Origin: a virus
Virus record (IMG/VR): IMGVR_UViG_3300031952_000029
Span: 1-48,518 of that record
Length of the DNA: 48,518 bases
Strand: one strand, 5' to 3'
Under the pieces are notes generated by a model. It had not been told where the DNA came from. It worked only from the letters and a program-made list of their open reading frames with translations, and did no database searches. How positions within the stretch are numbered: position 1 is the stretch's first letter; each line of letters starts with the position of its first letter. A program made the translations under genes and the position numbers. Below are positions 13,960 through 35,337 of the stretch, piece after piece.

Positions 13960-16900
13960 ATGAGTAGTGCAAGCTATGAAGCATTAATTAGAGTAGTTCT
14001 TGATAAGACTGGTTTACAATCACAAATAAACAGTGCCACAAAATCTGCTAAAATGACAATGAAAGCAGATCTTGACCAAAGAAGTCTTGAAATTGTACTT
14101 CAAAAGTGGAAAAATAAAGTAGAAACATTAAAAATAACAAAACCTGCAATATTTAATAATAAGGATGTCCAAGAACAATTAAGAATTTTTGATAATTTGA
14201 CTATTGGCGTTAAGAACGGAACAGTTGCTCTACAAGAGTTGCCAGCACAATGGAGCAATGTTCAAAGGGAAGTTTCAAGAGCTGGCGCAGCAATGAAAGG
14301 CACAGTTAAAGACGGTTATGCCATGAATGAAATGCTTAGTGTTGCTGCTAAAAAAGTAATAATATGGGGCATTGCTACAGAAGCCATTTATGGATCTTTG
14401 AAAAAAATTGGAGAGGGTATTCAATATATCAGAGATTTGAATAAAGAAATGGTTAATATTCAAATTGTTAATAATATGAGTTCTGCACAAATTGCTGATT
14501 TGGCAATGCAATATAATGGTTTAGCAAAAGAATTGGGTACTACTACTTTGGAAGTTGTTAAAGGAAGTTTGGAGTGGATTCGCCAGGGCAAATCCATAGC
14601 AGAAACACAAACATTGCTTAGAGCTAGTACCATGATGAGTAAATTGGCCAACATGGATAGCGCCGCAGCAACAACTACATTGACAGCGACATTAAATGCA
14701 TATAAGTTAGAAGCAAAAGATGCTACAAGTGTATTAGATGTTTTAGTTAATTTAGACAACAACTACGCCACGTCGGTACAAGAAATTAGTGATGCTATGC
14801 AAAGATCTGCAAGCGTAGCTAAACAGGCCGGGGTTGGATATAAAGATTTGGCCAGTTATATTACGGTTATTTCGAGCGTGACGAGGTTAGCGTCGGATAG
14901 TATAGGGCAATCTTTAAAAACAATTTTTCAGAGGATGGAGCAAGTAAAGTTAGGTAAAAAACTTGACGAAGAAGGGGAAGATATTTCTAATGTTGAAAAA
15001 GCCTTGCGAACACAGGGAATTGAAGTTCGTAAAAACGCTTATGAATTTAGAGATATGGATGATGTTTTGTCTGATGTTGCTAAAAAATATAAAGAACTTG
15101 GATTAGCAGGAAAAACAGTAGAACAGTCTATGATGGTTCAAACTATGGCTGGTCTTCGTCAAGGAAATATGCTGACGGCATTATTGAACAATTGGGATAT
15201 GGTAACAGAAGCTCAAAATACAGCCAATACAAGCGCAGGATTAGCAAGTCAAAGATATGAAAAATATCTCTTGGGGGTAGAAGCGGCTGCTAATAGATTG
15301 TCTGATAGTTGGCAATTATTGTGGCAACAAATGTTACCCCCAGAAAAAATAGCTCAATTTTATAATTTTTGGGCGGACGTATTATCTACAATAAATGGTG
15401 CTAGGTTTGCTACATCAAAATCACAACAAACTACGTATACGTTTTTGACAAATCAATTGAAGGCATTAGAAAGTCAAAAAGCTGATTTGGACGCTATGGG
15501 ATTAGAAAAAGGGGTTAGTTATGTTAATCCAGCTCTTGATGCAGCGATAATTGCAGTAAGAGAATCTTTGAACGAATTGTCGGATTCTTTTAAAAAAACA
15601 GGGGATGTAGCAACGGATTCTGCCTCAGACATAGATGGGTATAATAAAGTTCTAGCTGATACACAAATTTTGGCAAGGATGAAAGCAACGGAAGATCTTG
15701 ACGGAATAATGCGACAATATCTTGAGACTCAGAAAGAAGTTCCTCCTGTTGTAGGAGAAGTTGTAAAATCCATTGAAGAACTAACTACTGCAGCAGACAC
15801 ATCCTCCGCATCATTCTTTTCTTCTAATAGTATGCTTGAGTCTGTCCTTGCGGATTACGGTGAATATGGTCAAATAACAATAGATCAAGCATATAAAATG
15901 ATAGATGCTGGTTATGCTGCTGCATTAGCAATTAATGTTGAAACTGGTGCAATTACTATTAATAAACAAGTATTACGAGAATTGGCTATTCTGAAAGCAC
16001 AAGATGCCGAAGCAACCGCTTGGGCTGTTTATCAGGAACAAGATGCTGCTAATAAAAGGATGGCTATAGTTATTCCTTCTATATTGGCAGAAACTGCTGC
16101 TTTACTTGCTAAAGCAAATGCTCTTCATGGCATTACAACACTTTTACAAAAGACTCCCGAAGCAATAACCATTCCTACTCCTTTTATTTCTCCTGCTGTT
16201 GGAGGAGGAGGCGGTGGTTCTTCCGAAAATAAAGCTGAACAAGAATACCAAAAACTTCTTGATGAAACCATCAAAAAAATAAAAGATAAAAAAAATGCAC
16301 AAAAAGATGCATTAAAAGCTGAATTAGATGCGTATAAGAAAATTATAGACGCTGCAAAAGATTTATTAGATCAGAAGAAAGATGAACGTAATTATACTAA
16401 ACAAGTAGAAGAACAATCTAAGACTATTGCAGATATTCAAGAAGAATTATTAGAACTTCAATTTGATAATAGTGCAGAAGCTAATGCCAAAAGATTAGAA
16501 CTACAAGAACAACTTGTTGAAGCACAAGGTGAACTTGAAGACACTCAGTATGATAGAAGTATAGATGTCCAAAAAGAAGCTCTTAATAAAGAATATGAGG
16601 ATTATAAATCCGGTATTGATGCCAGAATAAATGAACTTGAATTATATCTTGCAGATACAGAAAGAATTACCCAAGATGCGATTAGACAAATTGGTAAAGC
16701 AGGACAAGATATGGTTTCGGCTATGGGTGGTGCTATTGCATCTGGAATATCTCAAGTTAATGCATATGCTCAAACAGTGGCAACTACAATAGGTAGTGGT
16801 TGGGCTGCTGCTCAAGATTCAATGGAAAAATATTATCATTCTGCTGCATATTATTCAACTCTGGGTTCTGGATGGTCTGGTATGCCGCCAGAGTATGAAA

Positions 16901-17289
16901 TAGGTTCTGGATGGAGTGTTTGGGCTGCTTCTCAAGATTCAATGGAAAAATATTATCATTCTGCTATGCCAGGAGTACCTTCCTATGATGATGGTGGTAT
17001 TGTATCAGGTATTGCTTCTAGCAAATCAGGAGTAGTATTTGCACAATTATTAAAAGGCGAAGTTGTCGCTACTGACGACATGATGAGAAATTTTATTAAT
17101 AGAACATTACCAAAAATATCATCAACAATTAAAAATGATAGCAATATTACTATATCAATGCCTATTAGTATAGCGGGTAATCTTGATCGTAGTGTTCTTC
17201 CTGATATGGAAAAAATGGTATTAAAAACTGTTAATAATGCCATAAAAAAAAGAGGGGTAGTTAGAAATGCTAATAGTTTTAGCGTATAG
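13960..17289 (+). CDS. Tape measure protein
   Basis: This 1109-aa protein sets tail length and helps DNA delivery. Residues ~130-330 carry the phage tape measure core (ATEAIYGSLKKIGEGIQYIR, MSSAQIADLAMQYNGLAKEL, VLDVLVNLDNNYATSVQEIS). A Gly-rich linker lies near residue 750. Residues ~765-915 are a long charged coiled coil (KKNAQKDALKAELDAYKKII). The C-terminal region has a 40-residue duplication containing AAQDSMEKYYHSA, then the PSYDDGGIVSG segment and LLKGEVV seen at many tape measure ends. The start follows AAAGGAGG. It is rather short for a tape measure; tail length is not estimated here. Confidence 0.9.
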   Translation: MSSASYEALIRVVLDKTGLQSQINSATKSAKMTMKADLDQRSLEIVLQKWKNKVETLKITKPAIFNNKDVQEQLRIFDNLTIGVKNGTVALQELPAQWSNVQREVSRAGAAMKGTVKDGYAMNEMLSVAAKKVIIWGIATEAIYGSLKKIGEGIQYIRDLNKEMVNIQIVNNMSSAQIADLAMQYNGLAKELGTTTLEVVKGSLEWIRQGKSIAETQTLLRASTMMSKLANMDSAAATTTLTATLNAYKLEAKDATSVLDVLVNLDNNYATSVQEISDAMQRSASVAKQAGVGYKDLASYITVISSVTRLASDSIGQSLKTIFQRMEQVKLGKKLDEEGEDISNVEKALRTQGIEVRKNAYEFRDMDDVLSDVAKKYKELGLAGKTVEQSMMVQTMAGLRQGNMLTALLNNWDMVTEAQNTANTSAGLASQRYEKYLLGVEAAANRLSDSWQLLWQQMLPPEKIAQFYNFWADVLSTINGARFATSKSQQTTYTFLTNQLKALESQKADLDAMGLEKGVSYVNPALDAAIIAVRESLNELSDSFKKTGDVATDSASDIDGYNKVLADTQILARMKATEDLDGIMRQYLETQKEVPPVVGEVVKSIEELTTAADTSSASFFSSNSMLESVLADYGEYGQITIDQAYKMIDAGYAAALAINVETGAITINKQVLRELAILKAQDAEATAWAVYQEQDAANKRMAIVIPSILAETAALLAKANALHGITTLLQKTPEAITIPTPFISPAVGGGGGGSSENKAEQEYQKLLDETIKKIKDKKNAQKDALKAELDAYKKIIDAAKDLLDQKKDERNYTKQVEEQSKTIADIQEELLELQFDNSAEANAKRLELQEQLVEAQGELEDTQYDRSIDVQKEALNKEYEDYKSGIDARINELELYLADTERITQDAIRQIGKAGQDMVSAMGGAIASGISQVNAYAQTVATTIGSGWAAAQDSMEKYYHSAAYYSTLGSGWSGMPPEYEIGSGWSVWAASQDSMEKYYHSAMPGVPSYDDGGIVSGIASSKSGVVFAQLLKGEVVATDDMMRNFINRTLPKISSTIKNDSNITISMPISIAGNLDRSVLPDMEKMVLKTVNNAIKKRGVVRNANSFSV
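16801..16965 (+). repeat. 45-bp direct repeat inside the tape measure gene
   Basis: The segments 16801-16845 and 16921-16965 are identical except for one base (G or T at their tenth position). The period is 120 bp (40 codons). They encode the repeated WAA(A/S)QDSMEKYYHSA segment. Such a recent duplication changes protein length in the C-terminal part of the tape measure. Confidence 0.8.
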
Positions 17290-17370: not shown

Positions 17371-18147
17371 ATGGGTTTTTATGGAAAAACTTTCGTTTGG
17401 AACTCTGTTCCTAGCGAAACTTATAATTTATATATTACCAATTTTGATACTGGTCGCAAAGATTCGTCTGGTGGAGCAGGGGTAGAAATTTTTACTCAAC
17501 AAATATATCGCAGACCAGTTCCTTATTTTCATGGCGTATCACAAACTCCAGTTTTATCATTTCCATTGACAATAAGTAGTCCTTTACCTATAGATGGTGC
17601 AACTCGAACTATTATAGAATCATGGTTATTTGGAACGCTAAGTTATAAAAAATTACAGATTATGCAATGCGATTTAGATACTGCATATTTCAATGCTTTT
17701 CTTACAGATCCCATTGCTATTTATACTGGGAATTTAAATTATGGGTATGAGTGTACTGTAGTATGTGATGCTCCCTGGGCGTGGGAATTTGCAAGAACTT
17801 TGACAAAATCGTCTGCAACAGCATTTTCATTTTATAATCTTAGTGCAAACAATGACTATTTGTATCCATCCATATCTTTTACTACATCTTCTGTTGGCAA
17901 TTCAATGTCTATAACTAATACAAGCGATGCTAGTCGCATATTTTCTTTTACTGCAATATCTCCGCTTGAAACTATTACTGTAGACAATGATAAAAAAATA
18001 ATAACATCAAGTACAGGATTATATAGATTAAGCAAATTTAATAAAAAATGGTTTAGATTTGTCCCTGGTTTAAATAATCTTACCATGACAGGACTTATTA
18101 CTAATTTGTCTATAACATATCAATTTGCTAAAAAGGTTGGGGGATAA
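17371..18147 (+). CDS. Distal tail protein (Dit)
   Basis: This 258-aa protein has the length, position and sequence style of siphovirus Dit proteins, which form the hub between tail tube and tip. The N-terminal region contains FVWNSVPSETYNLYITNFDT and RPVPYFHGVSQTPVLSFPL. The middle contains YFNAFLTDPIAIYTGN and NYGYECTVVCDAPWAWEF, typical of the siphovirus-type tail component family. The C-terminal half is a beta-rich domain. It starts at ATG after GGAGG and slightly precedes the Tal gene, as expected for a Dit-Tal pair. Confidence 0.82.
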   Translation: MGFYGKTFVWNSVPSETYNLYITNFDTGRKDSSGGAGVEIFTQQIYRRPVPYFHGVSQTPVLSFPLTISSPLPIDGATRTIIESWLFGTLSYKKLQIMQCDLDTAYFNAFLTDPIAIYTGNLNYGYECTVVCDAPWAWEFARTLTKSSATAFSFYNLSANNDYLYPSISFTTSSVGNSMSITNTSDASRIFSFTAISPLETITVDNDKKIITSSTGLYRLSKFNKKWFRFVPGLNNLTMTGLITNLSITYQFAKKVGG

Positions 18148-18151
18148 TAAT

Positions 18152-20758
18152 ATGATACAACTTTTTGATTCTTTTGATAAATTTGAAAATCCCGCAATAA
18201 TTTTATGTAATCCCGACAAAACACAATTATATGAATTAGGAACGATTTACGATAGACAATTAGAGCTAAGATATAATGCATTGTCCAATTTTTCTTTTAT
18301 TGCTCCGTCAAAAGTAAATGAAGTTACGACAGAATATTATGCATCATTAGAATATAGGCGATTGATATATATAGAAAATATTGGATATTTTATGATTACA
18401 GAAATTGACAAAATAAATGATGGAATCATAGAAACAAAAAAAATAAAATGTCAATCTCTTGAGGTTGTTTTTGCAAATAAGAAATTGACAGTGTTTGAGG
18501 GAACTTATCAATTTTATAATGTAATTAGTCCATCAGCTACTTTAATAGGAACAATGCTTAGTTATGTTCCCGGGTGGACTGTGGGAACTATTGATGCTTC
18601 ATTATGGAGTTTATACAGGACTTTTGATGTATCAGATACAACAATATATAGTTTTTTAATGACAGATGTTGAACAAGCATATCAATGTGTTTTTACTTTT
18701 GATACAATTAACAAGACTTTAAGTGCTATTGCTGCTCCAACATCTGCATCCGCTATGTCTTCTACTGATATTTTTATGTCATTTGATAATTTGATTAAGG
18801 AAGTTGATATAACAGAAAAAACAGATGAATTAGTAACTGCATTGAATGTTTATGGCGCTGGTAGTTTAGATATATTAACAGTCAATCCATTGGGAACTCC
18901 TACAATATATAATTTTGATTATTATAAAACTACTGCATGGATGTCAACTGGGTTGATTGCTGCAATTGATGCGTGGAAAGCTAAAATAGTTGTTCAACAA
19001 CCTATATATGCGGGATATTTAACCAGTCTAAAAACTGCGAATTCAGAATTGCTTATATTACAAGCTGCTCTTGCGGTTTTAAATGCTACATTACTTTCAT
19101 TACAGGGAACTCAACGGGTTAGAATAGAACAAGGACTTAGTATTACTGCGGTAAATGCACAAATAATAGCACAGCAAGCGCTGATAACAGCAAAAACATT
19201 AGAGATTACTAATAAGAATGCACAAATTGCGGGGATTTTAGTTTTACTTAGGGCAATTAATACTTTGGTTTCTTTTGCTAGCAATTTTACCGCAGGTCAA
19301 TTGTTGGAATTAGATCCTTTTATTCTTGGTTCTACATATCAAAATGAAAATTTTGTGCAGACTGATATTATGACAGATGTTGAAATTCAAACCATGGCAC
19401 AAAATCTTTATAATCAAGCAATAAATGTTTTGACAAAAGTGTCTACTCCTAGATATGAATTTGAAATTGATTCTGCAAATTTTGTGTTTTTGAAAGAGTT
19501 CTCAACCTTTATTAGTCAATTACAATTAGGATCAACTATTACATTAGAATTAACTACGGATACTTATGTTCAACCTGTTTTGTTAGGTATAGATTTAAAT
19601 TATGATGATCCTACTTATTTTAAGATGATATTTGGAAATAGGTTGAGACTAGATGGTAGTTCCTATGAGTTTAGTGATTTGTATGGATCAAATACAAGTT
19701 CTGCTCTGCAAACTACATTCAATTCGTTACAATGGGATAATTGGAATACAAATTATAGAGATCCTGTTTCATTGTTTATTGAAAGTTCTTTGAATGCATC
19801 GCTAAATAATGTTATTAGTGGCAGTAGCGAAGAAATTCGTATTGATCAAAATGGATTGAGGGGCAGAACTTTTATATCTGGAAGTAGTTATAAGGCTACA
19901 CAGGTGTGGTTGACCAGTAATACCTTAGCGTTCACGAAAGATAATTGGAATACGGCAAGTTTAGCCTTGGGCCAGATAGTGACGCCAACGGGTGGTTCTG
20001 CTTTCGGTTTGGTTGCGGATATTTTAATTGGCCGAATCGTTGCCGGAAACGAATTATTTATATCTAATGCAAACAATAGCTTTATTTTAAACGGAAGTGG
20101 AGCGACACTTACGGATGCAAGCTTTACAATTAATAAAACTGGTGGTCTAAGTAGATTATATATGAATCCTAGTACGGGGATTCAAATACAAAAAAATGTT
20201 GGAGGTACATGGGTCAATCAATTTTCAGTTGATTCTAGTGGTAATGTTACTCTCGCTGGGGTATTGAGTGGAGCGACGGGAACTTTTTCTGGAGCGTTAA
20301 GTGCTGCTACGGGTACTTTTGCTGGTTCTTTGAGTGCTGCTACGGGTACTTTTGCTGGAAATATTTCAGCGGCATCAGGGACTTTTAATGGCAATATTTA
20401 TGCCGCCAATTTGTCAGATCAAGTTCAAAATGATAAAATTGCCGATAATGCAGTCACCAATGCTAAGGTAGCAAGTGGTTTAAGTGCAGCAAAGATTACT
20501 ACAGGAACAATGGTTGCAGATAGGATAAATGGAGGAAGTGGATATGTTGATTATTTAGGCAGTGCCCAAATATTTGTCAATACTCGTCTTACTGTTGCAG
20601 GGGGAGGTATTACCACTTTGAATGGTAGCATTTATCTAAATGGAAGTATTTATACTTCTGGATATCAGGGAAAAACAATTGGTTATAACGTAAAAACGCC
20701 CTATGGCACTGGTACTTTAACTTTTACGAACGGGATATTGACTAATTATGCCGGATAA
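18152..20758 (+). CDS. Tail-associated tip protein (Tal-like) with fibre-like C-terminus
   Basis: This 868-aa protein follows Dit and probably forms the tail tip that contacts the host. Residues ~1-370 match the general layout of Tal/gp44-like hub proteins (IQLFDSFDKFENPAIILCNP, YRRLIYIENIGYFMITEID). A coiled-coil stretch (~290-370) follows. The C-terminal ~300 residues are low-complexity, beta-rich and fibre-like, with an 11-residue repeat (SAATGTFAGSL, SAATGTFAGNI, SAASGTFNGNI) near 20,310-20,400. ATG 18152 is chosen because a GGGGGA ribosome site lies just upstream; the frame is open back to 18125. No peptidase motif is seen. Confidence 0.72.
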   Translation: MIQLFDSFDKFENPAIILCNPDKTQLYELGTIYDRQLELRYNALSNFSFIAPSKVNEVTTEYYASLEYRRLIYIENIGYFMITEIDKINDGIIETKKIKCQSLEVVFANKKLTVFEGTYQFYNVISPSATLIGTMLSYVPGWTVGTIDASLWSLYRTFDVSDTTIYSFLMTDVEQAYQCVFTFDTINKTLSAIAAPTSASAMSSTDIFMSFDNLIKEVDITEKTDELVTALNVYGAGSLDILTVNPLGTPTIYNFDYYKTTAWMSTGLIAAIDAWKAKIVVQQPIYAGYLTSLKTANSELLILQAALAVLNATLLSLQGTQRVRIEQGLSITAVNAQIIAQQALITAKTLEITNKNAQIAGILVLLRAINTLVSFASNFTAGQLLELDPFILGSTYQNENFVQTDIMTDVEIQTMAQNLYNQAINVLTKVSTPRYEFEIDSANFVFLKEFSTFISQLQLGSTITLELTTDTYVQPVLLGIDLNYDDPTYFKMIFGNRLRLDGSSYEFSDLYGSNTSSALQTTFNSLQWDNWNTNYRDPVSLFIESSLNASLNNVISGSSEEIRIDQNGLRGRTFISGSSYKATQVWLTSNTLAFTKDNWNTASLALGQIVTPTGGSAFGLVADILIGRIVAGNELFISNANNSFILNGSGATLTDASFTINKTGGLSRLYMNPSTGIQIQKNVGGTWVNQFSVDSSGNVTLAGVLSGATGTFSGALSAATGTFAGSLSAATGTFAGNISAASGTFNGNIYAANLSDQVQNDKIADNAVTNAKVASGLSAAKITTGTMVADRINGGSGYVDYLGSAQIFVNTRLTVAGGGITTLNGSIYLNGSIYTSGYQGKTIGYNVKTPYGTGTLTFTNGILTNYAG
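20310..20405 (+). repeat. 33-bp repeats in the tip protein gene
   Basis: About three 33-bp units encode SAATGTFAGSL-type 11-residue repeats. The first two are nearly identical at DNA level (GTGCTGCTACGGGTACTTTT in each). They probably form a trimeric beta-helical or fibrous shaft segment. Confidence 0.6.
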
Positions 20759-22250: not shown

Positions 22251-23282
22251 ATGCCTACTAATACTACATTTTTAGGATTAAAAACTTACAATACAACCAC
22301 GGACGGATCTGCATTATTTCAAACTTTTAGAACAGATTTGGCTGGATTGGCTACAACTTCTAATATGAATTTAATAGATACGTTTGCAGCGAATGTAAGC
22401 GGATCGATTACTGCATTGGAGGGGAAAGAGGGAATTGTTTATGTACCTGCTACTTATATATCCCCTAATTATTATGAAGCTACAGTAGCTGATATTGCAG
22501 CATATGCAACGGGGCAATTGATAGATTTGTCATTGAATATTGTTAATGATGGAACTGTAACACTTAAAATAAATGCATTGGCAACAGTAAGTGTTTTAAA
22601 AATCGCTACATCTGGTAGTACCGCAAATATGTCTAATGGTGATTTAAAAGCCAACAAAGAATATTTATTTAGGTATAATGGTGCTGCTTGGATTTGGATA
22701 GACGCAAATAGTATAGAACAAATTAACGCACAAGGAACTTGGGGAAATCTTGTTGCAATAGCAAGTGGAAGTGTTTTAGGAGATAGTGGTATTGCTACTA
22801 TTTCTGGATCAAAAATTGCTGCTGCTCATGTTCCTATTAGCAGTGGTTTGGTCTCAAGTGCAGGTTCTATTATTGCAAATGTAGGGACTGGATTGGTGAT
22901 AAATAGCGGCTCTATTACTGCGAATGTCGGGGCAGGTTTGGTCTCAAGCGCAGGTTCTATTATTGCAAATGTAGGGACTGGATTGGTGATAAATAGCGGC
23001 TCTATTACCGCAAATATTGGGTCTGGTTTAGTCTCGAGCGCAGGTTCTATCGTTGTATCCGCTGGAAGTGGATTAAGAGTTGTTAGTGGGTCTGTAATTG
23101 TTCAGACAAGCGGAAGTATTATTACGATTGATAGTAGCGGTTCTCTGGGGCATAAAACATCTAGCGCATCTCCTATTGCTTATACAACTACGAACATTAC
23201 CTTGGACGCGTACGGACATGTAGTCGCCGCCAGCAATGGAGCTGGAGAAGCTGATATTTTGCAAATACAAATATTTAATTAA
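22251..23282 (+). CDS. Tail fibre protein with 30-residue repeats
   Basis: This 343-aa protein begins with a phage fibre-like N-terminus (NTTFLGLKTYNTTTDGSALF, then a helical linker). Residues ~75-160 form a globular beta domain. Residues ~198-285 contain two full copies and a partial copy of a 30-residue repeat (GLVSSAGSIIANVGTGLV then INSGSITANVGA). A C-terminal domain ends in AYTTTNITLDAYGHVVAAS, similar to fibre tip ends. It should form a trimeric shaft. The start follows GAGGAGG. Receptor specificity cannot be told from sequence. Confidence 0.75.
   Translation: MPTNTTFLGLKTYNTTTDGSALFQTFRTDLAGLATTSNMNLIDTFAANVSGSITALEGKEGIVYVPATYISPNYYEATVADIAAYATGQLIDLSLNIVNDGTVTLKINALATVSVLKIATSGSTANMSNGDLKANKEYLFRYNGAAWIWIDANSIEQINAQGTWGNLVAIASGSVLGDSGIATISGSKIAAAHVPISSGLVSSAGSIIANVGTGLVINSGSITANVGAGLVSSAGSIIANVGTGLVINSGSITANIGSGLVSSAGSIVVSAGSGLRVVSGSVIVQTSGSIITIDSSGSLGHKTSSASPIAYTTTNITLDAYGHVVAASNGAGEADILQIQIFN
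22845..23030 (+). repeat. 90-bp tandem repeats in the fibre gene
   Basis: Units start at 22845, 22935 and 23025 (the third partial), with an exact 90-bp period. The first two units are almost identical. They encode the shaft repeat of the fibre protein. Copy-number change by recombination would lengthen or shorten the fibre in steps of 30 residues. Confidence 0.85.
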
Positions 23283-23301: not shown

Positions 23302-23664
23302 ATGTCTACATATACAAAATACACATTTTCTAGTTCTGGTAGTGGTAGGGGGATCAAAGTTGTTGCGAGTGGAAGTCCTGGTACGACTATTCATACCGTG
23401 TCCTCCGCTGCGACAAATTATGACGAAATTTATTTATATGCTTATAATGGACATACGGCCAATGTTGTTTTAACAATAGAATTAGGAGGATCAACTGTTC
23501 CAGATGACAATATAGTAATAACTGTCCCGTTTAAGCAAGGCTTATACTTAATTGTACCTGGACTTATTATTCAGGGCAATGCTAGTCCAGTTTCTGTGAC
23601 TGCGTATGCTAATGTAGCAAATGTCATATCCATTACAGGATGGGTGAATAGGATAAGCGCATGA
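23302..23664 (+). CDS. Conserved beta-rich virion protein
   Basis: This 120-aa protein has the pattern GTTIHTVSSAATNYDEIYLY, NVVLTIELGGST, GLYLIVPGLIIQGN and a final ISITGWVNRISA. I recognise this combination from small conserved virion proteins next to fibre genes in several phages. It starts after AAGGAGA, and its stop overlaps the start of the repeat protein (ATGA), linking the two. It may be an adaptor that holds the repeat protein, which is inference. Confidence 0.6.
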   Translation: MSTYTKYTFSSSGSGRGIKVVASGSPGTTIHTVSSAATNYDEIYLYAYNGHTANVVLTIELGGSTVPDDNIVITVPFKQGLYLIVPGLIIQGNASPVSVTAYANVANVISITGWVNRISA

Positions 23665-24347
23665 CAAGTACATCAGGTCAAGCTGTGCGAAACAGAATGC
23701 AATGTGGTAATAGAATACCTGGAAAAGTGGATGAATTTATTTCCAGAGCAGCAATATACGGATATTTTGCAGGCGGGGATACTACCACTTACCAGGTAAC
23801 TACAGACCAGGTTACTTTTGCAACACAAGCTACTGACGCTAAAACAACAGCAAATCTATCCCAAGCACGATACAGTTTAGCAGGACTTAGTGATGGGGCA
23901 ATATACGGATATTTTGCAGGCGGGACTAATGGCACTGACCAGGCAACTACAGACCAGGTTACTTTTGCAACACAAGCTACTGCTGCTAAAACAACAGCAA
24001 ATCTATCCCAAGCACGACAAGGTTTAGCAGGACTTAGTGATGGGGTAATATACGGATATTTTGCAGGCGGGTATACTACCACTTTCCAGGTAACTACAGA
24101 CCAGGTTACTTTTGCAACACAAGCTACTGCCGCTAAAACAACAGCAAATCTATCCCAAGCACGACGCTATTTAGCAGGACTTAGTGATGGGGCAATATAC
24201 GGATATTTTGCAGGCGGGTATAATGGCACTAACCAGGTAACTACAGACCAGGTTACTTTTGCAACACAAGCTACTGCCGCTAAAACAACAGCAAATCTAT
24301 CCCAAGCACGACGCTATTTAGCAGGACTTAGTGATGGGGCAATATAA
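23661..24347 (+). CDS. Repeat protein of four 49-residue kelch-like units (putative receptor-binding)
   Basis: The 228-aa product has a 30-residue lead and then four copies of a 49-residue unit (YGYFAGG, TTDQVTFATQATAAKTTANL, SQAR, LAGLSDG). The GYFAGG plus SQAR plus GLSDG layout resembles kelch/beta-propeller blades found in phage tail proteins. Copies differ mainly at short clustered sites: after FAGG (DTTTY, TNGTD, YTTTF, YNGTN) and after SQAR (YS, QG, RY). The frame stops two codons into a fifth unit (GCA ATA TAA instead of TAC). The first residues and the last could complement each other to close a propeller. It probably binds host surface sugars, which is inference. Confidence 0.65.
   Translation: MTSTSGQAVRNRMQCGNRIPGKVDEFISRAAIYGYFAGGDTTTYQVTTDQVTFATQATDAKTTANLSQARYSLAGLSDGAIYGYFAGGTNGTDQATTDQVTFATQATAAKTTANLSQARQGLAGLSDGVIYGYFAGGYTTTFQVTTDQVTFATQATAAKTTANLSQARRYLAGLSDGAIYGYFAGGYNGTNQVTTDQVTFATQATAAKTTANLSQARRYLAGLSDGAI
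23751..24338 (+). repeat. Four tandem 147-bp repeats
   Basis: Unit starts are at 23751, 23898, 24045 and 24192, with exactly 147 bp between each, and the fifth unit begins at 24339 before being cut by a stop. Most of each unit is identical at DNA level, including synonymous positions, so the array is recent or kept uniform by recombination. Confidence 0.92.
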
Positions 24348-24349
24348 AA

Positions 24350-26062
24350 ATGGAAATAAATAATTTAGTCAATCCTGATATTGCTTTAATGTTAGCGGCG
24401 TTTGATGAAATTCAAATGCCACGTTCGGCTTTCATGCTCGAAAACTTAGTTATTAAATCTAAGGATACAGATGCAACAGCTTATTCCCAATGTGTTCTGG
24501 AGTTATCAATTGCTTTTGACAATTTGCGTATTTCTAACAAAAGATTACAAATACTGCAAATTGAAATTGACGAACTGATTAAAAATGGTACTGAAATAGA
24601 TATACTGAATGCAGATATAAAACAAATCGAATTAGAACAGTACGAAAGAACCAGACTTGGTGCAAAAAGAGAATTTGAATGCTTGTATAGTATGTGGAGC
24701 AAATTCCCGCAGCACTATACACACGAAGAGTTAGAGGATGACCAACCGAATTATTGGAATAAACGGTTATCACGTCAGGCCAACCAGGATATGCAAGCAA
24801 TTGGTAGGGTTACCCAGGGCAATCAAGACGCATTGCGTCAGATAGGGTTGGGTACTATACCGCAACTCGATGTAGTTAGGGATATTGAGAGGAGATTTAC
24901 TGATAATTGTAATCCGCCAGGTGAATTATCCAGAATATTGATAGTAGTACCAACTCAAGAAAAAGCTATTAACGGACTAGCTTGTTTAACGGGCGTGACA
25001 ATGCCATCTACTTGTGAGCGTAAAATACTAAATGTTTATGGCAGAGAGATTGCGGACGCATATACTTATGCTGCAATGCAGGCGGTACAAGAAAATGTAG
25101 ATTATATGATTACAATCGAGGATGATACATTTCCGCAGTCTGATGCCATTATTAAATTAGTGGAATTAGCTAAACAAAATCCGGGTTGTGCGATCGGGGC
25201 GTGGTATCCGATGCGCAATCAAATACCAGTTAAAGGCGTTCATATAATACTCCATGAAACTGGTGACAGGGATTATTTATCGCCTGACAGCGGAACACAT
25301 GAAGTGTATACATTAGCAATGGGATGTACAATTTATCCTACAGAGATGTTTGTAAAAATCCCTCAACCCTGGTTTGCGACAACCAGCTTGTTAACGCAAG
25401 ATTCATTTTTCAGCCAATTGGCCAGAGAACATGGTTATAAATTACTTGTGGACACGTCAATAAAATGTACCCACCGCGACAGAAAGACACTTGATATTTA
25501 TTCAGAAACAGGAATCATACCGAGCGCTCTGCAAGTTCCATATGAATTAGAACACTTATTGGAATACGTGAAAGACAAAAAACTCATTTTGGAAATTGGC
25601 ACAATGCGTGGTGGGACATTACAAAGGTTCTTACAAGTTGCTGATGATAACGCTGAGGTGATTACAATTGATAAACCTAATGGGAAGTACGGCGGCGAGT
25701 ATGGACAACCCGATATAGATGTTATGCAATCCTGGAAACGCAACGGACAACAACTACATATTATCAGAGATGATAGCCAATCACAATATGCCAAAGAGCA
25801 GGTAGAAACAATTTTGCATGGTAGGAAATTAGATTTTGTATTTGTGGATGGTGACCATAGTTATCAAGGGGTAAAAGCTGATTATGACAGATACCGCAGA
25901 TACACTAAAGGTATTATGGCATTCCATGACATTGTGGAACACGCTCAGACTGATGTTGGAGTAAAGCGCTTCTGGGAAAAGCTCGAAGGAAATAAAACGG
26001 AAATTATAAAAGACCTTGCTCAAGGATGGGGAGGGGTAGGGATTTTGGAGGTTACAAAATGA
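24350..26062 (+). CDS. Glycosyltransferase-methyltransferase fusion
   Basis: This 570-aa protein has three parts. Residues 1-190 are helical with a region YWNKRLSRQANQDMQAIGRV of unknown role. Residues ~195-380 look like a GT-A glycosyltransferase: ILIVVPTQEKAINGLACLTG, the metal-binding acidic motif EDDTFP (257-262), AMGCTIYPTEMF, TQDSFFSQLAREHGYK and CTH (373-375). Residues ~405-570 are a class I SAM methyltransferase of the Methyltransf_24 type: LEIGTMRGG, VITIDKP, FVDGDHSYQGVKADY and FHDI. It starts three bases after the repeat-protein stop. It may add and methylate a sugar on a virion protein or on the host surface. G+C looks higher than in nearby tail genes. Confidence 0.78.
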   Translation: MEINNLVNPDIALMLAAFDEIQMPRSAFMLENLVIKSKDTDATAYSQCVLELSIAFDNLRISNKRLQILQIEIDELIKNGTEIDILNADIKQIELEQYERTRLGAKREFECLYSMWSKFPQHYTHEELEDDQPNYWNKRLSRQANQDMQAIGRVTQGNQDALRQIGLGTIPQLDVVRDIERRFTDNCNPPGELSRILIVVPTQEKAINGLACLTGVTMPSTCERKILNVYGREIADAYTYAAMQAVQENVDYMITIEDDTFPQSDAIIKLVELAKQNPGCAIGAWYPMRNQIPVKGVHIILHETGDRDYLSPDSGTHEVYTLAMGCTIYPTEMFVKIPQPWFATTSLLTQDSFFSQLAREHGYKLLVDTSIKCTHRDRKTLDIYSETGIIPSALQVPYELEHLLEYVKDKKLILEIGTMRGGTLQRFLQVADDNAEVITIDKPNGKYGGEYGQPDIDVMQSWKRNGQQLHIIRDDSQSQYAKEQVETILHGRKLDFVFVDGDHSYQGVKADYDRYRRYTKGIMAFHDIVEHAQTDVGVKRFWEKLEGNKTEIIKDLAQGWGGVGILEVTK

Positions 26063-27969: not shown

Positions 27970-29874
27970 TTATTTTCCATTTGGTTTCTCCAATATTTGA
28001 AAACTTTTTGAGTTTTGACGATATATTGTGCCGCCCTTCAATCCTTTTTTCCACATATACATATATATATCAAAAATATCATCAATAGTAGAATTTTCTG
28101 GCAAGTTTGATGTTTTGCTAATAGCATTTGATACATACTCCTGCCAGGCAGATTGAATTTCAATATGTGTTTTCCAACTAATATCGTTTGCTGTCTTGAA
28201 TAATTCTTGGAATTCTTTGGATACTAATTTACATCCAGACAGACTACCCTTTGAGGCAACATAATCAAGGATTTCTTCTATTTGATCCTTGTCATATTTT
28301 GCGTCTTTTAATTTTCTTTCTAACGCAGGGTTTGTTTCAAATATTGAATTGGTTGCAATATTTCCTATTCCTTCCGTAATATTTCTTTTATATGCTAATG
28401 CAAAAAACGGTTCAATACCTCCGTTTACCCCAGCTATAATCGCTATACTTCCTGTTGGCGCTATACTGGTTACGGATACGTTTCTTAGTCCAATTTTTCG
28501 CAATTCTTTTATGTTAATGTTGCTTTTTTCAAATTGACTGTCATATAAAGTTTTAGTAACAACATGCAAATTAACTTTGTTTTTATCGTAAAATTTGAAA
28601 TGACCTCTTTCTTTTGCAAGTTCGAAAGATGTTTCCCAAGCATGAAAATTTATAAACCATGATAAATATCTTGATAATTCTATTGCTTCATTGGATTCGT
28701 ATGAAATATTTAATTCAACTAACAAATCAGCAAATCCAAGAACACCAACTCCCAATCTACGCAATCCTTTACTCATTTTGTTTATATATTCTAAAGGTGC
28801 TTCTGTAATTTCAGTTACATCTTCAAGAAATCTGGTGATAATCTTAGTAGTATTTTTTAGTTTTTCATAATCAATTTGTTTTGATTTTTTATCAAACATT
28901 TTATATAAATTAATGGATGCTAATATGCAACTTTCTCCTTCTAGGAGGGGCACTTCACCGCAGGGGTTTGATGCAGTAATATCTCCCATATAGGAAACCA
29001 TATTGTCTTGATTAATTCTGTCAAAAAATAGCTGTCCAGGATCACCTGACGAGTGGGCTTGTTTTGCCATTTGATAAAGCAAATCTTTTGCCTTTACTGT
29101 CTTAACAATATTTCCAGATAATGGAGAAATCAAATTCCAATTTTTGTCACTCTCCACTTGTTGCATAAATTTATCTGTTAAAAGAACAGAGATGTTAAAG
29201 TGAGTTAGTTGATCATCCAATAGAGTTTTTTCAAGGATTTGCTCGTATCTTGTACCATTTAATCTTCCATCTACTAAGTGAAGATTACGATCATATTCTT
29301 GCATTAATCTTGTGTTTCTTGAATTTAACACAGATTTAAAATTAATAAAATTTTCAATATCCGGACTCGATATATTCATCGTTCCAAGTTGAGCGCCACG
29401 TCTAGATGCTTGTTGAATGACTTCGCCTGTTTGATCGAACAAGGACATGAAGGACAATGCGCCAGATGCTTTTCCGCCTGTACTTTTTATATCTGCCCCA
29501 GCTTCTCTTATTTTGCTAAAATCATAGCCTACCCCACCTCCCATAGCAAAAATTTCAGCAGCATCTTTCAGGGTTTGATATATAGATTGTCTGCTATCTT
29601 CTATTCCAAGAACAAAACAATTAGCTAAATTTTTAATTCCAGTTCCTGCATTTGCGATAATTCTGCCACCAGGTAGCATCTCTAATTCTACCAATGTATC
29701 AAAGAACATATTTGCAATCGCTTGAATTTGTTCATCTGTTTTATTGTATGGTTTTTCTCCTTCTGCTATAAAATTTGCGATATTTCTACAAGTTTCTTTC
29801 CAGCTTCTTGTTTTTCTGGTTGAGTATTTTAGTGTAAATACTTTTTTTGCTTTTTCGTTCAATTCTTCTGTCAA
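27970..29874 (-). CDS. nrdJ: Class II (adenosylcobalamin-dependent) ribonucleotide reductase
   Basis: This protein makes deoxyribonucleotides from ribonucleotides using coenzyme B12. Motifs include MLPGGRIIANAGTG, LANCFVLGIEDS with the first active-site Cys, ASNPCGEVPLLEGESCILAS with the thiyl radical Cys, and VTSIAPTGSIAIIAGVNGG with GIEP. The end (GLKGGTIYRQNSK) stops soon after the catalytic barrel, and no C-terminal cysteine pair is visible. A TTG at 29874 is chosen as start (about 634 aa), because AGGAGAGGAG lies just upstream and it follows the kinase stop by 20 bases. The frame is open back to an ATG at 29952 inside the previous gene. Confidence 0.9.
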   Translation of the reverse strand: MTEELNEKAKKVFTLKYSTRKTRSWKETCRNIANFIAEGEKPYNKTDEQIQAIANMFFDTLVELEMLPGGRIIANAGTGIKNLANCFVLGIEDSRQSIYQTLKDAAEIFAMGGGVGYDFSKIREAGADIKSTGGKASGALSFMSLFDQTGEVIQQASRRGAQLGTMNISSPDIENFINFKSVLNSRNTRLMQEYDRNLHLVDGRLNGTRYEQILEKTLLDDQLTHFNISVLLTDKFMQQVESDKNWNLISPLSGNIVKTVKAKDLLYQMAKQAHSSGDPGQLFFDRINQDNMVSYMGDITASNPCGEVPLLEGESCILASINLYKMFDKKSKQIDYEKLKNTTKIITRFLEDVTEITEAPLEYINKMSKGLRRLGVGVLGFADLLVELNISYESNEAIELSRYLSWFINFHAWETSFELAKERGHFKFYDKNKVNLHVVTKTLYDSQFEKSNINIKELRKIGLRNVSVTSIAPTGSIAIIAGVNGGIEPFFALAYKRNITEGIGNIATNSIFETNPALERKLKDAKYDKDQIEEILDYVASKGSLSGCKLVSKEFQELFKTANDISWKTHIEIQSAWQEYVSNAISKTSNLPENSTIDDIFDIYMYMWKKGLKGGTIYRQNSKSFQILEKPNGK

Positions 29875-29893
29875 TGTTTGTTTTTCTCCTCTC

Positions 29894-30421
29894 CTATGAT
29901 TTTTGTAAACATCCAATAATTTCTTGGATTGTTTCTTTGATCGGTCTATCATTATTAATCACATAATCAACCTCATCCTTAATTCCCTGAAAAACTCCCT
30001 GGTCAGACAATATGCGTCTGAACATTTCCATCAAATTATCATCTCTATCTATCATTCTTTTTAATCTAATTTTTTCTGGTACATCAATAAAAAATGATAT
30101 CAATAAAATATTTTTTTCTTTACATATTTTTTTTAATGTTCTCATTCCGTATGGTTCTACAACTGCTATAGAATTTGGCAATAAATCATTTTTGGATATG
30201 CCATAATTCCAAGAGTTATATAAAGTTTTTTCGGCAAAAAATCCATTGGTATCAAAATCTAAAAATTCTTCTTTGGTTATAAAATGATAATCTTTATGAT
30301 TTATTTCGTTTGGTCGCATGGGTCGTGATGTATAGGAAATGATATTAGTATATCCATTTTTAACTAATTCCTTTTCTATGGTAGATTTACCTGCTGCTGA
30401 CGCTCCTACAATTAATATCAT
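29894..30421 (-). CDS. Guanylate kinase-like (d)NMP kinase
   Basis: This 175-aa protein has a P-loop, GASAAGKST (6-14), and the guanylate kinase signature region SYTSRPMRPNEINHKDYHF. In that signature the usual Gly is His. It should phosphorylate (d)GMP or a related (possibly modified) monophosphate with ATP. ATG 30421 overlaps the stop of the deoxynucleotidase gene (ATGA). A GTG at 30430 is also in frame. Neighbours are the nucleotidase before and the reductase after, so it works in the dNTP supply. Confidence 0.8.
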   Translation of the reverse strand: MILIVGASAAGKSTIEKELVKNGYTNIISYTSRPMRPNEINHKDYHFITKEEFLDFDTNGFFAEKTLYNSWNYGISKNDLLPNSIAVVEPYGMRTLKKICKEKNILLISFFIDVPEKIRLKRMIDRDDNLMEMFRRILSDQGVFQGIKDEVDYVINNDRPIKETIQEIIGCLQKS

Positions 30422-30996
30422 CTTACCCACTTTGCAAAAGTATCTAATGATTGATTTTGAGATATTAATAAATCATTATATTTTTTTACAAATTTTATAA
30501 ACTCTTCCCAATCATTAACTCTGGGTAAATTATAATTTTGATTCCATGGTTGCGAGAAGAGTACTCCCTTTTTTGGAAAATTTTCAATTGTTTCTGGCTT
30601 GTCATCTAATAAAATATCAATATTAATAAGACTCTTATCATAAATAGTAATAAATTCATTAATACTATTAATATATTTATGTCTGATCAACCACCCGTAT
30701 TTTGCTTCCATAGTTTTGGGCATACATGCACTTATAAAAAGTATATTATGTCCTTGTTCTTTTAATATATTTATACAATTCAAACTGTTTGGTATTTCCA
30801 AACACTTCAAATATAATATAGGATCATTAAAATATTCAAAAACTTTTTTACCGCATTCTTTTTTTACGAATTGTGATACGTCCCATTGTGTTATGTCTTC
30901 TTTTTTCAGATTATCATCGTAGTCTTGATTGTATTTTAAAATCCAAGCATTTCCTAAATCACATACAACATCATCACAATCAATTCCTATGTTCAT
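30418..30996 (-). CDS. 5'(3')-deoxyribonucleotidase-like HAD phosphatase
   Basis: This 192-aa protein begins with IGIDCDDVVCDLG, the D-x-D nucleophile motif of HAD phosphatases in the deoxynucleotidase form. It later has ILFISACMPKTMEAKYGWL and DILLDDKPETIENF, the motif II and acidic motif III/IV regions. It should remove phosphate from a (d)NMP. In phages such enzymes can eliminate dTMP or another nucleotide, or recycle host DNA products. It overlaps the guanylate kinase-like gene and has an AAGGAA ribosome site. Confidence 0.78.
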   Translation of the reverse strand: MNIGIDCDDVVCDLGNAWILKYNQDYDDNLKKEDITQWDVSQFVKKECGKKVFEYFNDPILYLKCLEIPNSLNCINILKEQGHNILFISACMPKTMEAKYGWLIRHKYINSINEFITIYDKSLINIDILLDDKPETIENFPKKGVLFSQPWNQNYNLPRVNDWEEFIKFVKKYNDLLISQNQSLDTFAKWVR

Positions 30997-31005
30997 AATA
31001 TTTCC

Positions 31006-31233
31006 TTAATGTAAAATATTACTAGAAAGTTGCGCTAGTTCTTCATCTATTTCCAGATTTTCAAAATAAAATGTTGTTTCTCCAACTGCCATATCAAAAG
31101 AATCCCATATTAATTCGGCGTCATTATTAGGTATGTTATGTTCTTTTATTAATTGTTTTGCAAACATCTTTTTATTTTTTGCATCACAATACATATAAAA
31201 AAATTTGTATAAGATATCTTGTGTATATTTCAT
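31006..31233 (-). CDS. Small acidic helical protein, unknown
   Basis: This 75-aa protein starts at ATG 31233, overlapping the previous stop as ATGA. An in-frame ATG at 31251 has a GGGGAGG sequence directly against it, which is too close. It is helical with an acidic end (FENLEIDEELAQLSS). No family is recognised. It lies at the downstream edge of the GC-richer gene island. Confidence 0.55.
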   Translation of the reverse strand: MKYTQDILYKFFYMYCDAKNKKMFAKQLIKEHNIPNNDAELIWDSFDMAVGETTFYFENLEIDEELAQLSSNILH

Positions 31234-31442
31234 ATGTTTGTTTGAGTACATCCTCCCCGCGTATATTCCTTGATTACTCCCAACTCCTCAAGCGGACAAT
31301 CTTCACGGATGCCGCCTGCGGTGGGTATTGTATAACCTGTAGCCCCGATGTCGTCATGGTCACAATATGCGGCATCACTATCATCACTAACTCTTCGGAT
31401 ATATGGACAATTCACACAATCTGCTATAAATATAACTTTCAT
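31230..31442 (-). CDS. Small CxxC protein (paralogue of 44712-44885)
   Basis: This 70-aa protein starts with MKVIFIADCVNCPYI and later has AAYCDHDD and REDCPLEEL. The four cysteines in the order CxxCPY, YC, CPL suggest a small zinc-binding fold. The same plan appears in the gene at 44712-44885. It is linked by ATGA overlaps to both neighbours. G+C is high for this genome; I count 29 G/C in the 60 bases 31321-31380. Function is unknown. Confidence 0.65.
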   Translation of the reverse strand: MKVIFIADCVNCPYIRRVSDDSDAAYCDHDDIGATGYTIPTAGGIREDCPLEELGVIKEYTRGGCTQTNI

Positions 31443-31774
31443 ATCCTATTCCTTTCATCTGTGCTCAAAGTTGTTTCCGCTTCATCTGTATACATCCTAT
31501 CGACTGCGCCAAGACGAGTATCAAAATCTATATTTGCTACATTCTTTTTTGTCTTCGTCTTTGTCTTTGACCTTATAATTATCCCAGCGATTTCTGCCGG
31601 CATATTAATTTCATACCAAGCAATTAAATCCCTGTTGTCACATCCAGGCGCAAGCTTACCTGTGGAACGAAATGTAGCGACTATGTAATCGCTGTACAGA
31701 TGCGTTACCAGTGTTGCCTTATTCATAACCTGCCGTGCCAATCCTCCGTTAACTCGTTCTGGTTTTGTTTTCAT
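31439..31774 (-). CDS. Unknown protein in the GC-richer island
   Basis: This 111-aa protein starts at ATG after GGAGA. It has a mixed fold, an SKTKTKTKK basic stretch and an acidic C-terminus. No family is recognised. It is the first gene of a three-gene ATGA-overlapping set with a more balanced base composition than the surrounding genes. A strong hairpin (31824-31872) and two palindrome copies precede it. Confidence 0.6.
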   Translation of the reverse strand: MKTKPERVNGGLARQVMNKATLVTHLYSDYIVATFRSTGKLAPGCDNRDLIAWYEINMPAEIAGIIIRSKTKTKTKKNVANIDFDTRLGAVDRMYTDEAETTLSTDERNRI

Positions 31775-31795
31775 AAATTATCTCCATTTTCTAAA

Positions 31796-31813
31796 ATAAA
31801 AGGATGATTTTAT
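31796..31813. repeat. ATAAAA-N6-TTTTAT palindrome
   Basis: A perfect copy with spacer GGATGA, 22 bases upstream of the start at 31774. It is followed on the + strand by TTGATTT, as is the copy at 31886. Confidence 0.7.
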
Positions 31814-31823
31814 TTGATTTCGG

Positions 31824-31872
31824 TGTCCCATATATGGGGGTCGCCTGTTGACCAACCCCCACCTGTGGGACA
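31824..31872 (-). other. Strong two-part hairpin between palindrome copies
   Basis: TGTCCCA (31824-31830) pairs with TGGGACA (31866-31872), and inside it TGGGGGT (31835-31841) pairs with ACCCCCA (31855-31861). The two stems are GC-rich and perfect. On the - strand it lies after the adenine methyltransferase stop and before the gene at 31774. It has no T-tract. It may end transcription, control the island genes, or be part of an inserted segment. Confidence 0.6.
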
Positions 31873-31885
31873 TAATTATTTTTCA

Positions 31886-31903
31886 ATAAAAGATAAATTT
31901 TAT
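31886..31903. repeat. ATAAAA-N6-TTTTAT palindrome
   Basis: A perfect copy with spacer GATAAA, overlapping the stop region of the adenine methyltransferase gene. With the copy at 31796 it flanks the hairpin at 31824-31872. Confidence 0.7.
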
Positions 31904-32595
31904 TTGATTTGAAATAATCTTTCAATTCTTGGTATCATTTTTCCATCTTTATTTTTTAAATCTGTTCTGGTTTCAATTTCTAAAACACATTCAAAATCAT
32001 TTGGAGCAATATATTCAGATATAAAAACTAAATTATTTTTAGACCATATTCTCACAATTTCCCAAAATTCATTGTTATCAAAACCATTGAACAAATCATA
32101 TTTGGTAGTATTAGAATAGGGTGGATCACAATATATTAGGGCATTATCTGGTTTACATTCTTTATAGTCTTTATATTTAAATATCACATCTTTGATTTTT
32201 GGTAATTGATTTATTAATGTATTGTGAGCATTCAATGCATAATTTCTTGTAGTTTTTTTATCTCTACAGTAACCACCAAACCATTTACCAGAGTAACTAC
32301 ATCCGATTCCACAAAATGCCGTCAATGGTTTATTTTCTTCTTTGTTATTTTTGACATGTTGATATTCTTTTTCTGTTATGTTTTTTGGTGGTATCCAACC
32401 ATTTTGTAATGCAATATATAAGTCAATCAAATATTCATTTTTGTCAGATGCATATCTTTTTATGTTTTCAACTTTTTCAATTACTGCACAACTGCCCACA
32501 AATGGTTCAAAATAATATTTAGATTCCTTTATATAGGGATTCAAAAATTCAACAATTTGTTTTGCTATGCGTTTTTTGCCACCTAAATATCGCAT
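31900..32595 (-). CDS. Dam-like N6-adenine DNA methyltransferase (D12 class)
   Basis: This 231-aa protein has the alpha-class adenine methyltransferase layout: N-terminal RYLGGKKRIAKQIV, then FEPFVGSCAV (SAM-binding), and later IYCDPPYSNT (the DPPY catalytic motif). It should methylate adenine in a short DNA site, protecting phage DNA from host restriction. The ATG at 32595 has AAGAGA upstream; a TTG directly before it is also in frame. No partner endonuclease is visible. Its target site cannot be predicted from sequence. Confidence 0.88.
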   Translation of the reverse strand: MRYLGGKKRIAKQIVEFLNPYIKESKYYFEPFVGSCAVIEKVENIKRYASDKNEYLIDLYIALQNGWIPPKNITEKEYQHVKNNKEENKPLTAFCGIGCSYSGKWFGGYCRDKKTTRNYALNAHNTLINQLPKIKDVIFKYKDYKECKPDNALIYCDPPYSNTTKYDLFNGFDNNEFWEIVRIWSKNNLVFISEYIAPNDFECVLEIETRTDLKNKDGKMIPRIERLFQIK

Positions 32596-32608
32596 CAATA
32601 TTCTCTTG

Positions 32609-32626
32609 ATAAAATAACGATTTTAT
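32609..32626. repeat. ATAAAA-N6-TTTTAT palindrome
   Basis: A perfect copy with spacer TAACGA, 13 bases upstream of the methyltransferase ATG. Confidence 0.7.
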
Positions 32627-32637
32627 ATGTTTTTTAA

Positions 32638-32655
32638 ATAAAACAATGGTTTTAT
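32638..32655. repeat. ATAAAA-N6-TTTTAT palindrome
   Basis: A perfect copy with spacer CAATGG, 11 bases from the previous copy. It contains the stop codon (32652-32654) of the small membrane gene. Confidence 0.7.
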
Positions 32656-32780
32656 GGGATATAAACAGGAATAAACCAATTCAATAATATTAAAATTAAA
32701 ATATTGATTCCAAGCCAAATAGCAATTGCCATTAAGAAATGCTTTTTTATCCATTTACCGAGTGGTTCAAATTCTTCCAT
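32652..32780 (-). CDS. Small single-pass membrane protein (42 aa)
   Basis: A 42-aa frame starts two bases after the previous stop. It reads MEEFEPLGKWIKKHF, then a hydrophobic segment of about 24 residues (LMAIAIWLGINILILILLNW) and a short FIPVYIP end. A charged N-terminus plus one transmembrane helix is a believable phage membrane peptide. Its ribosome site is weak and translation may be coupled. Function is unknown. Confidence 0.5.
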   Translation of the reverse strand: MEEFEPLGKWIKKHFLMAIAIWLGINILILILLNWFIPVYIP

Positions 32781-32782
32781 TT

Positions 32783-33178
32783 TTATACAATCCCCAATTT
32801 AACAATTTCTTTTTCTAATTCACAAATTCCCTGTTTAATTTTATCAAGGGTAATAACATAAACATTATTTGCACCATTTGGATTGTAATTATAATCTATA
32901 ATAATCCAATCTCCAATTTTTATTTCCTTTTGCCATTTAGATTCAAGTAATACATCAAGCGTTTCTTTAGAATCTATATATTGAAAAGTACCTAAAAAAT
33001 AACCAAAGATATCTATATCTATGTGTTTTATTTTTTCTTTTATTCTTTGTGTGCGAATATGATTTTCATGACATGCACAATCTTCTGGTCTAAAAAATTC
33101 TTTTCCATCTTCTGCGATATATATCGTAGTTTTTATAACATGGGAAGGTACTAATTGTTCCGTATTGAGTATTTTCAT
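32783..33178 (-). CDS. Unknown protein
   Basis: This 131-aa protein is Ile/Lys-rich and contains a CACHE segment and a small beta-like region (KIGDWIIIDYNYNPNG). It starts at ATG 33178, about 68 bases from a predicted promoter (33253-33280), with GGGGAG in the leader. No family is recognised. It is followed by the 42-aa membrane protein and the adenine methyltransferase gene, which may share this promoter. Confidence 0.6.
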   Translation of the reverse strand: MKILNTEQLVPSHVIKTTIYIAEDGKEFFRPEDCACHENHIRTQRIKEKIKHIDIDIFGYFLGTFQYIDSKETLDVLLESKWQKEIKIGDWIIIDYNYNPNGANNVYVITLDKIKQGICELEKEIVKLGIV

Positions 33179-33252
33179 TTAATTTTTTATTCTCCCCAAT
33201 CAAACCCAAATAAAAATCAGTAACAAATTTTTCTCTTTCTGGTATATCTATT

Positions 33253-33280
33253 AGTATACCACAATTTCCCTGTTTGTCAA
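33253..33280 (-). promoter_or_regulatory. Sigma70-type promoter, extended -10, with inverted repeat
   Basis: On the - strand TTGACA (33280-33275) and TATACT (33258-33253) are 16 bases apart, with TG before the -10 (TGGTATACT). The -10 sits inside an inverted repeat, GGTATA and TATACC (33241-33260), which could be an operator. It lies in a gene-free gap and should drive leftward genes from 33178. Confidence 0.75.
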
Positions 33281-33297
33281 GGATTTCCGCAAATTTT

Positions 33298-33552
33298 TTA
33301 TTCTTGGATACTTTTATAACAATTACAACAATAATAAGCATATGGTGGTTGTGTTCTACCATCATAGCATTTCTCAACAGGAATACCGCAACCTGGACAA
33401 AATAATTTTGGATAGATTTTTCTACCAAGTTTTAGAATCGATTTTCCATAATTAGATGGAATATCACAACCCCTATATTCAATCCAGCGAGAAAAATCAA
33501 ATAAAATTTGACTAATTTTTATTAATATTTTAGTTATTATTTTTAATATCAT
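33298..33552 (-). CDS. Small protein with zinc-binding cysteines
   Basis: This 84-aa protein starts after AAGGAA. It has a hydrophobic/basic N-terminus (MILKIITKILIKISQILF) and a C-terminal set of cysteines (FCPGCGIPVEKC and YYCCNCYKS) typical of a zinc ribbon. The N-terminal helix might be amphipathic or membrane-bound. Function is unknown. Confidence 0.55.
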   Translation of the reverse strand: MILKIITKILIKISQILFDFSRWIEYRGCDIPSNYGKSILKLGRKIYPKLFCPGCGIPVEKCYDGRTQPPYAYYCCNCYKSIQE

Positions 33553-33562
33553 AAAAATTTCC

Positions 33563-35091: not shown

Positions 35092-35112
35092 TTTATCTCC
35101 TTTTTTAAAATA

Positions 35113-35331: not shown

Positions 35332-35337
35332 TATTTT

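Follow-up and report, generated by a model that had tools for sequence, protein, structure and literature searches.

We analysed a 48,518-nucleotide stretch of viral DNA, hereafter the window, and found that a gene at the end of its tail module most likely encodes an exchangeable tail-fibre head that binds the host receptor. The protein is an array of near-identical 49-residue units, each of which would form one blade of a kelch-like β-propeller. We assign a probability of about 0.72 to the whole reading, namely a fibre head of a family with a six-blade norm, host contacts on one face, recent homogenisation of the blades, and probable collapse of the array in the assembled record.

The array of 147-bp units described by the sequence-only reading is confirmed. 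Tandem Repeats Finder gives a period of 147 with 4.1 copies and zero indels over 23751-24346, and the four units, with pairwise identities of 90.5-95.9%, lie in a single 228-codon frame (Table 1). The last three codons of the gene are GCA ATA TAA, of which GCA and ATA begin a fifth unit and TAA stands in place of that unit's TAC. Upstream of the array, a 30-residue segment aligns with the N-terminus of a leucine-rich-like gene found in the same genomic slot of another contig (L080; 36% over a weak, short alignment). This sharing is no more than suggestive; the segment is a presumed anchor.

Table 1 Features of the tail module and of the propeller gene in the window
Feature	Position	Strand	Basis or remark
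Tape measure	13960-17289	+	Gene order
Dit-like	17371-18147	+	Gene order
Minor tail	18125-20758	+	Then propeller cassette
Presumed fibre shaft, 343 aa, with repeats	22251..23282	+	Ends ADILQIQIFN
Presumed adaptor, 120 aa, PHROG 30535	23302..23664	+	Overlaps propeller start by ATGA
Kelch-like propeller gene, 228 aa	23661..24347	+	30-aa N-terminal segment, four 49-aa units, two codons, stop
Presumed anchor, N-terminal 30-aa segment	23661..23750	+	Weakly similar to N-termini of other genes in the slot
Unit 1 (predicted strands B, C, D of blade 1 and strand A of blade 2)	23751..23897	+	Strand order from predicted model and kelch alignment
Unit 2	23898..24044	+	Unit alignment
Unit 3	24045..24191	+	Unit alignment
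Unit 4	24192..24338	+	Unit alignment
B-C loop variable cluster, codons 10-14, unit 1	23778..23792	+	Entropy peaks in relatives
B-C loop cluster, units 2-4	23925-23939, 24072-24086, 24219-24233	+	Equivalent offsets
D-A loop / strand A start cluster, codons 41-42, unit 1, after conserved Arg	23871..23876	+	Entropy peaks in relatives
D-A loop / strand A start cluster, units 2-4	24018-24023, 24165-24170, 24312-24317	+	Equivalent offsets
114-bp exact repeat	24086..24199, again at 24233-24346	+	Array end included
Ala-Ile codons of a further unit and TAA	24339..24347	+	C-terminal end shared with close relatives; strand A presumed to close blade 1
Downstream partner: N-terminal PHROG 1409 domain, glycosyltransferase-2-like and methyltransferase domains	24350..26062	+	

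Among the accessible records, from which very near ones may be missing, close relatives were found neither by tblastn in phages at 1e-5, nor by peptide patterns drawn from the whole window protein, nor by an exact 24-mer search in viral contigs. A search of viral contigs with the aligned units retrieved 67 loci, and a bacterial genome contig (L079) gave a weak match. The nearest intact relatives, L003/L019, L012 and L014, have six units each. We compared the lengths of 51 intact single-propeller genes, a set that includes the window gene and from which exact duplicates were removed and near-duplicates kept. Fifty of them encode 298-341 residues, which is six-blade size, the 228-residue window protein being the only one outside this range. 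The family profile counts six blades in 42 of the 51; lower counts occur in genes of six-blade length in which a blade is missed. Larger cousins have 12 or 24 units arranged in blocks of six (6+6 or 6+6+6+6) with longer linkers between the blocks, as in L034 and L037. The common length and the blocks of six indicate that six is the family number. Hence, four units do not appear to be a natural number, and the earlier suggestion that unit number varies between phages finds no support among single-propeller genes, where no variation was seen apart from the window's four units.

The relatives also explain the end of the gene. Their C-termini (AGLSDGAV in L003/L019, AGLSDGAI in L012 and GLSDYAV in L014) stop at the same position of the unit as in the window, which argues that the TAA corresponds to normal ring closure. 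The stop two codons into a further unit was thus correctly read, but the shared C-terminal end speaks against a truncation event. In the proposed structure, the C-terminal strand A would pair with strands B-D of blade 1, which accounts for a frame ending two codons into the next unit. Other arrangements occur among the loci: L121, L123, L127, L129, L130 and L131 have two propeller genes close to each other, sometimes flanking the PHROG 1409 gene. In Synechococcus phage S-SKS1 (L004, HQ633071.1), propeller arrays span several frames and stops break the blade runs, as if the genes were decayed or mis-sequenced.

The predicted fold agrees with a kelch-like β-propeller, as had been proposed for the repeats. 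An AlphaFold2 model of the six-unit relative L014, computed from 52 aligned rows, has a mean pLDDT of 64 and a pTM of 0.69. Among PDB entries, it is closest to six-bladed kelch domains, with KLHL12 (6ttk) first (E 2e-10, probability 1.00) and the designed SAKe6 also among them; the top rows have TM scores of 0.54-0.63 by query length. Searched against BFVD, the model first retrieves proteins of uncultured phages and, after them, kelch proteins of phages, giant viruses and poxviruses. In addition, the family profile matches KLHL17 (6hrl) with an E value of 8e-4; in this alignment, YGYFgGG falls on the kelch strand that carries the double glycine. The cousin L034, which has twelve units, scores above the Pfam Kelch cut-offs (PF24681, E 6e-16; PF13415, E 1.5e-7). 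In the window, every unit carries YGYFAGG, whose double glycine, aligned to the kelch GG of 6hrl, ends strand B. On the other hand, the canonical kelch Trp of the strand D region is absent from all four window units, and the window protein matched no Pfam kelch model above cut-off; therefore, we call the fold kelch-like rather than a canonical kelch repeat. The closed ring of four-stranded blades is predicted for the six-unit L014, and the window record has four units only. In Pfam, the window protein also hit TetR_N, Seadorna_VP4 and Glyco_hydro_36C, and L019 hit unrelated families; these matches were judged spurious and repeat-driven.

The four window units differ at 16 nucleotides in nine codons (1, 10, 11, 12, 14, 16, 29, 41 and 42). 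Codons 10-14 and 41-42 together hold 12 of the 16 variable bases. A hypergeometric test of this clustering gives P = 3e-9 with windows picked post hoc, and a permutation of codons that includes a search for the best window pair gives P = 0.03, which is the more honest figure. The two short clusters anticipated by the sequence-only reading are therefore strong without being exclusive, codons 1, 16 and 29 varying as well. Between units, synonymous divergence is 0-0.037 and nonsynonymous divergence 0.057-0.117, whereas the blade cores of three relatives have synonymous divergences of 0.31-0.54. The low synonymous divergence indicates that the window copies are young and that their differences lie almost wholly at the protein level.

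The same positions vary in the relatives. In an independent set of about 340 blades (up to 348 per column), entropy is highest at columns 41, 15 (window codon 14), 10 and 42, and the window-variable columns have a higher entropy than the remaining ones (P = 0.002). Among 736 blades of distant cousins, entropy peaks at matching positions and loop length varies too. Variation is thus spread unevenly over the unit in relatives, with peaks at the window-variable columns, in line with the earlier proposal. The B-C and D-A connections of an antiparallel four-stranded blade share one face. In the kelch register, the strand order of the window unit is B-C-D-A, codons 10-14 form the B-C loop, and codons 41-42 start strand A, directly following a conserved Arg. 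Kelch topology and this register would bring the B-C loop and the strand A start together, so that both variable clusters are predicted to lie on one face of each blade, as the first reading had supposed.

Gene order points to a role in host binding. The propeller gene stands at the end of the tail module, following tape measure, Dit-like and tail genes. The 120-residue gene just before it is conserved: it also precedes the propeller in L014 and L019 and, in L080-L083, precedes other genes of binding type. In this slot, L082 encodes a Laminin_G_3 lectin (E 5e-11), and L080 and L081 encode leucine-rich-like repeats, recognised by eye and without Pfam support; the slot in L080-L083 also includes genes without assignment. 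The presence of a lectin or leucine-rich-like gene in place of the propeller suggests an exchange slot behind a constant adaptor. The putative receptor-binding role put forward at the outset is supported both by this exchange with lectin-type genes and by the gene order. Downstream, a gene of the FDEIQMPRSAF type occurs in all of L003/L019, L012 and L014. A search with the N-terminus of this gene retrieved 80 loci, and propeller blades adjoin it in 73 of them. In phage CBB, the kelch protein CBB_552 is a virion protein (PMC5259590).

Several further features of the surroundings were recorded. The presumed shaft gene contains 90-bp (2 x 45-bp) repeats at 22845-23074 of the window, which encode GLVSSAGSIIANVGTGLVINSGSITANVG. 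Its C-terminus is a short hydrophobic tail resembling that of a collagen-like gene, ending ADLLEVQVFL, which stands at the place of the shaft gene in L019. The + strand structural region also contains a homing endonuclease-like gene (3712-4530) and, just upstream of the tape measure, a gene for an integrase-like protein (12917-13924; PHROG 1, E 2e-27). The - strand genes at 27970-44036 include ribonucleotide reductase, IMP dehydrogenase-like, adenine methylase and DNA polymerase III alpha-like genes.

Two other accounts of the protein and its variation were considered. Instead of a closed propeller head, the gene might encode a shaft formed as a stacked β-solenoid, or else a decoration protein. 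When the window protein was modelled from its sequence alone, the result matched fibril and β-helix structures in the PDB, as expected of a stacked solenoid, but with TM scores of at most 0.2 and probabilities of at most 0.12. This model was poor (pLDDT 59), gave no propeller match, and was discarded as a repeat artefact. The aligned six-unit model of L014, by comparison, strongly matches kelch propellers, and a unit number fixed at six or at blocks of six is not required of a solenoid. We regard this account as improbable. Still less probable is that a diversity-generating retroelement, with a reverse transcriptase and a template repeat, writes the variable codons. Such an element would account for identical scaffolds and for variable codons ending in C or T, through adenine mutagenesis of AAY template codons. 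Variable four-fold codons do end in C or T in 14 of 14 cases in the window and in 24 of 24 in L019, and, with each locus's own codon usage as the reference, these two genes are the only outliers among 61; they are also the two most homogenised arrays. (Per-gene tests with the blades' own conserved codons as the reference were inflated by shared ancestry and were replaced.) However, a reverse transcriptase was found in none of 115 records (the window and 114 related ones, many of them fragments), and the window holds neither a template repeat nor a second copy. In addition, 43 adenines per unit are invariant throughout the array, although 34 of these lie no more than 12 bases from a variable site, and loop length differs between the blades of relatives, which retrohoming does not explain. 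Because the blades share a recent ancestor, their third bases are not independent, and a repertoire of Tyr, Asn, Asp, Phe and Ser forces a C or T third base too. Shared ancestry and this repertoire adequately explain the window pattern, and the retroelement was rejected. In some large cousins, a strong bias of this kind is not fully accounted for. In L040 (2818, 7293, 10909), 161 of 173 four-fold loop codons end in T or C, against 82 expected from that locus, and a strong T/C-ending bias of the hypervariable loops, far beyond local usage, is also present in L041, L042, L077, L028, L031, L049 and L056.

The remaining question is why the window gene has four units. Two blades are probably missing, through assembly collapse or through a recent deletion or loss, and we favour collapse of near-identical units by a short-read assembler over true loss at roughly two to one. 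One reason is that the longest internal exact repeats of 61 genes are those of the window and L019 (112-117 bp, against a median of 22 bp). The other comes from a marine study in which kelch repeats were nine times as frequent in long-read viral data as in assembled data (PMC9238414). A related contig, L002, breaks off inside its second blade. Counting against collapse, the assembly passed through a 114-bp exact repeat and hence had some resolving power. If two blades were instead truly lost by unequal recombination, which near-identical units favour, the protein would be defective or would build its ring from paired chains, for instance one eight-bladed ring from two four-blade chains. Such a loss is a credible but lesser possibility: the gene has an unbroken frame, building blocks of four blades from a seven-bladed WD40 propeller dimerised in vitro (PMC6805158), and disrupted and odd-numbered young propellers, one of them Kelch-like, have been reported (PMC9218822). 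Against it, none of the other 50 intact single-propeller genes falls below six-blade length, natural oligomeric propellers are very rare (PMC9218822), and near-identical tandem units are a documented assembly problem (PMC9238414). A bolder version, which we consider doubtful, treats the array as a built-in diversity generator: frequent recombination between blades would homogenise scaffolds, change their number and reshuffle contact residues, the four-blade state being genuine, functional and chain-paired. Binding specificity and valency would then change together.

The predicted protein can be compared with several known systems. It resembles kelch propellers (KLHL12, KLHL3, KEAP1 and the designed SAKe6) in the six four-stranded blades predicted for the relative L014 and in the double glycine ending strand B. 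In kelch propellers as in the proposed structure, the C-terminal strand completes blade 1 and the ligand surface is formed from all blades (PMC4019986). Unlike them, the window protein has near-identical blades without the canonical Trp, stays below Pfam kelch cut-offs, and has no BTB or other partner domain. The kelch proteins of jumbo phages CBB (CBB_550, 552, 554) and BcepSaruman are likewise phage kelch-type propellers, and both phages appeared in the fold search, but identity is about 20% and the phages are different. Near-identical blades are not mentioned for the CBB proteins in the available text of PMC5259590. The GYFGGG-repeat proteins of cyanophage S-SKS1 and of environmental contigs (L004, L020-L078) share the unit, the variable sites and the six-blade blocks, and S-SKS1 also has a PHROG 1409-like neighbour. 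They differ by often having 12 to 24 blades per chain, several tandem genes, and older, more diverged blades. Finally, recently amplified propellers (WRAP, PkwA and others; Lupas group) also show single-blade amplification and near-identical blades (PMC9218822, PMC6805158), whereas the window variation is concentrated on one face with an excess of nonsynonymous change. The word 'phage' is absent from the text of PMC9218822, and in the HFTV1 and DT57C papers 'kelch' occurs only as an author's name in the reference list.

Overall, we propose that a long-tailed phage uses the product of this gene, a kelch-like β-propeller, as its tail-fibre head. Each 49-residue unit would supply one four-stranded blade, beginning with strand B, on a scaffold built by the conserved YGYFAGG, TTDxVTF, NLSQAR and LAGLSDG. 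The residues of codons 10-14, in the B-C loop, and of codons 41-42, where strand A begins, would contact the host surface from one face. Recombination may have recently amplified or homogenised the blades, leaving scaffolds near-identical even at silent sites, while selection would have diversified the contact residues. With six blades as the family norm, the window's four would most likely reflect short-read collapse and, less likely, a real loss.

This would define a widespread and apparently uncharacterised family of phage binding heads, in which the six-blade scaffold is fixed and each blade has hypervariable positions on its face. The window would catch the family shortly after homogenisation, with substitutions confined almost entirely to the contact face. 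Blade counts taken from short-read viral contigs may be unreliable. The family would offer natural repeat scaffolds for binder design, and it would become directly testable how blade amplification gives rise to new phage specificities.
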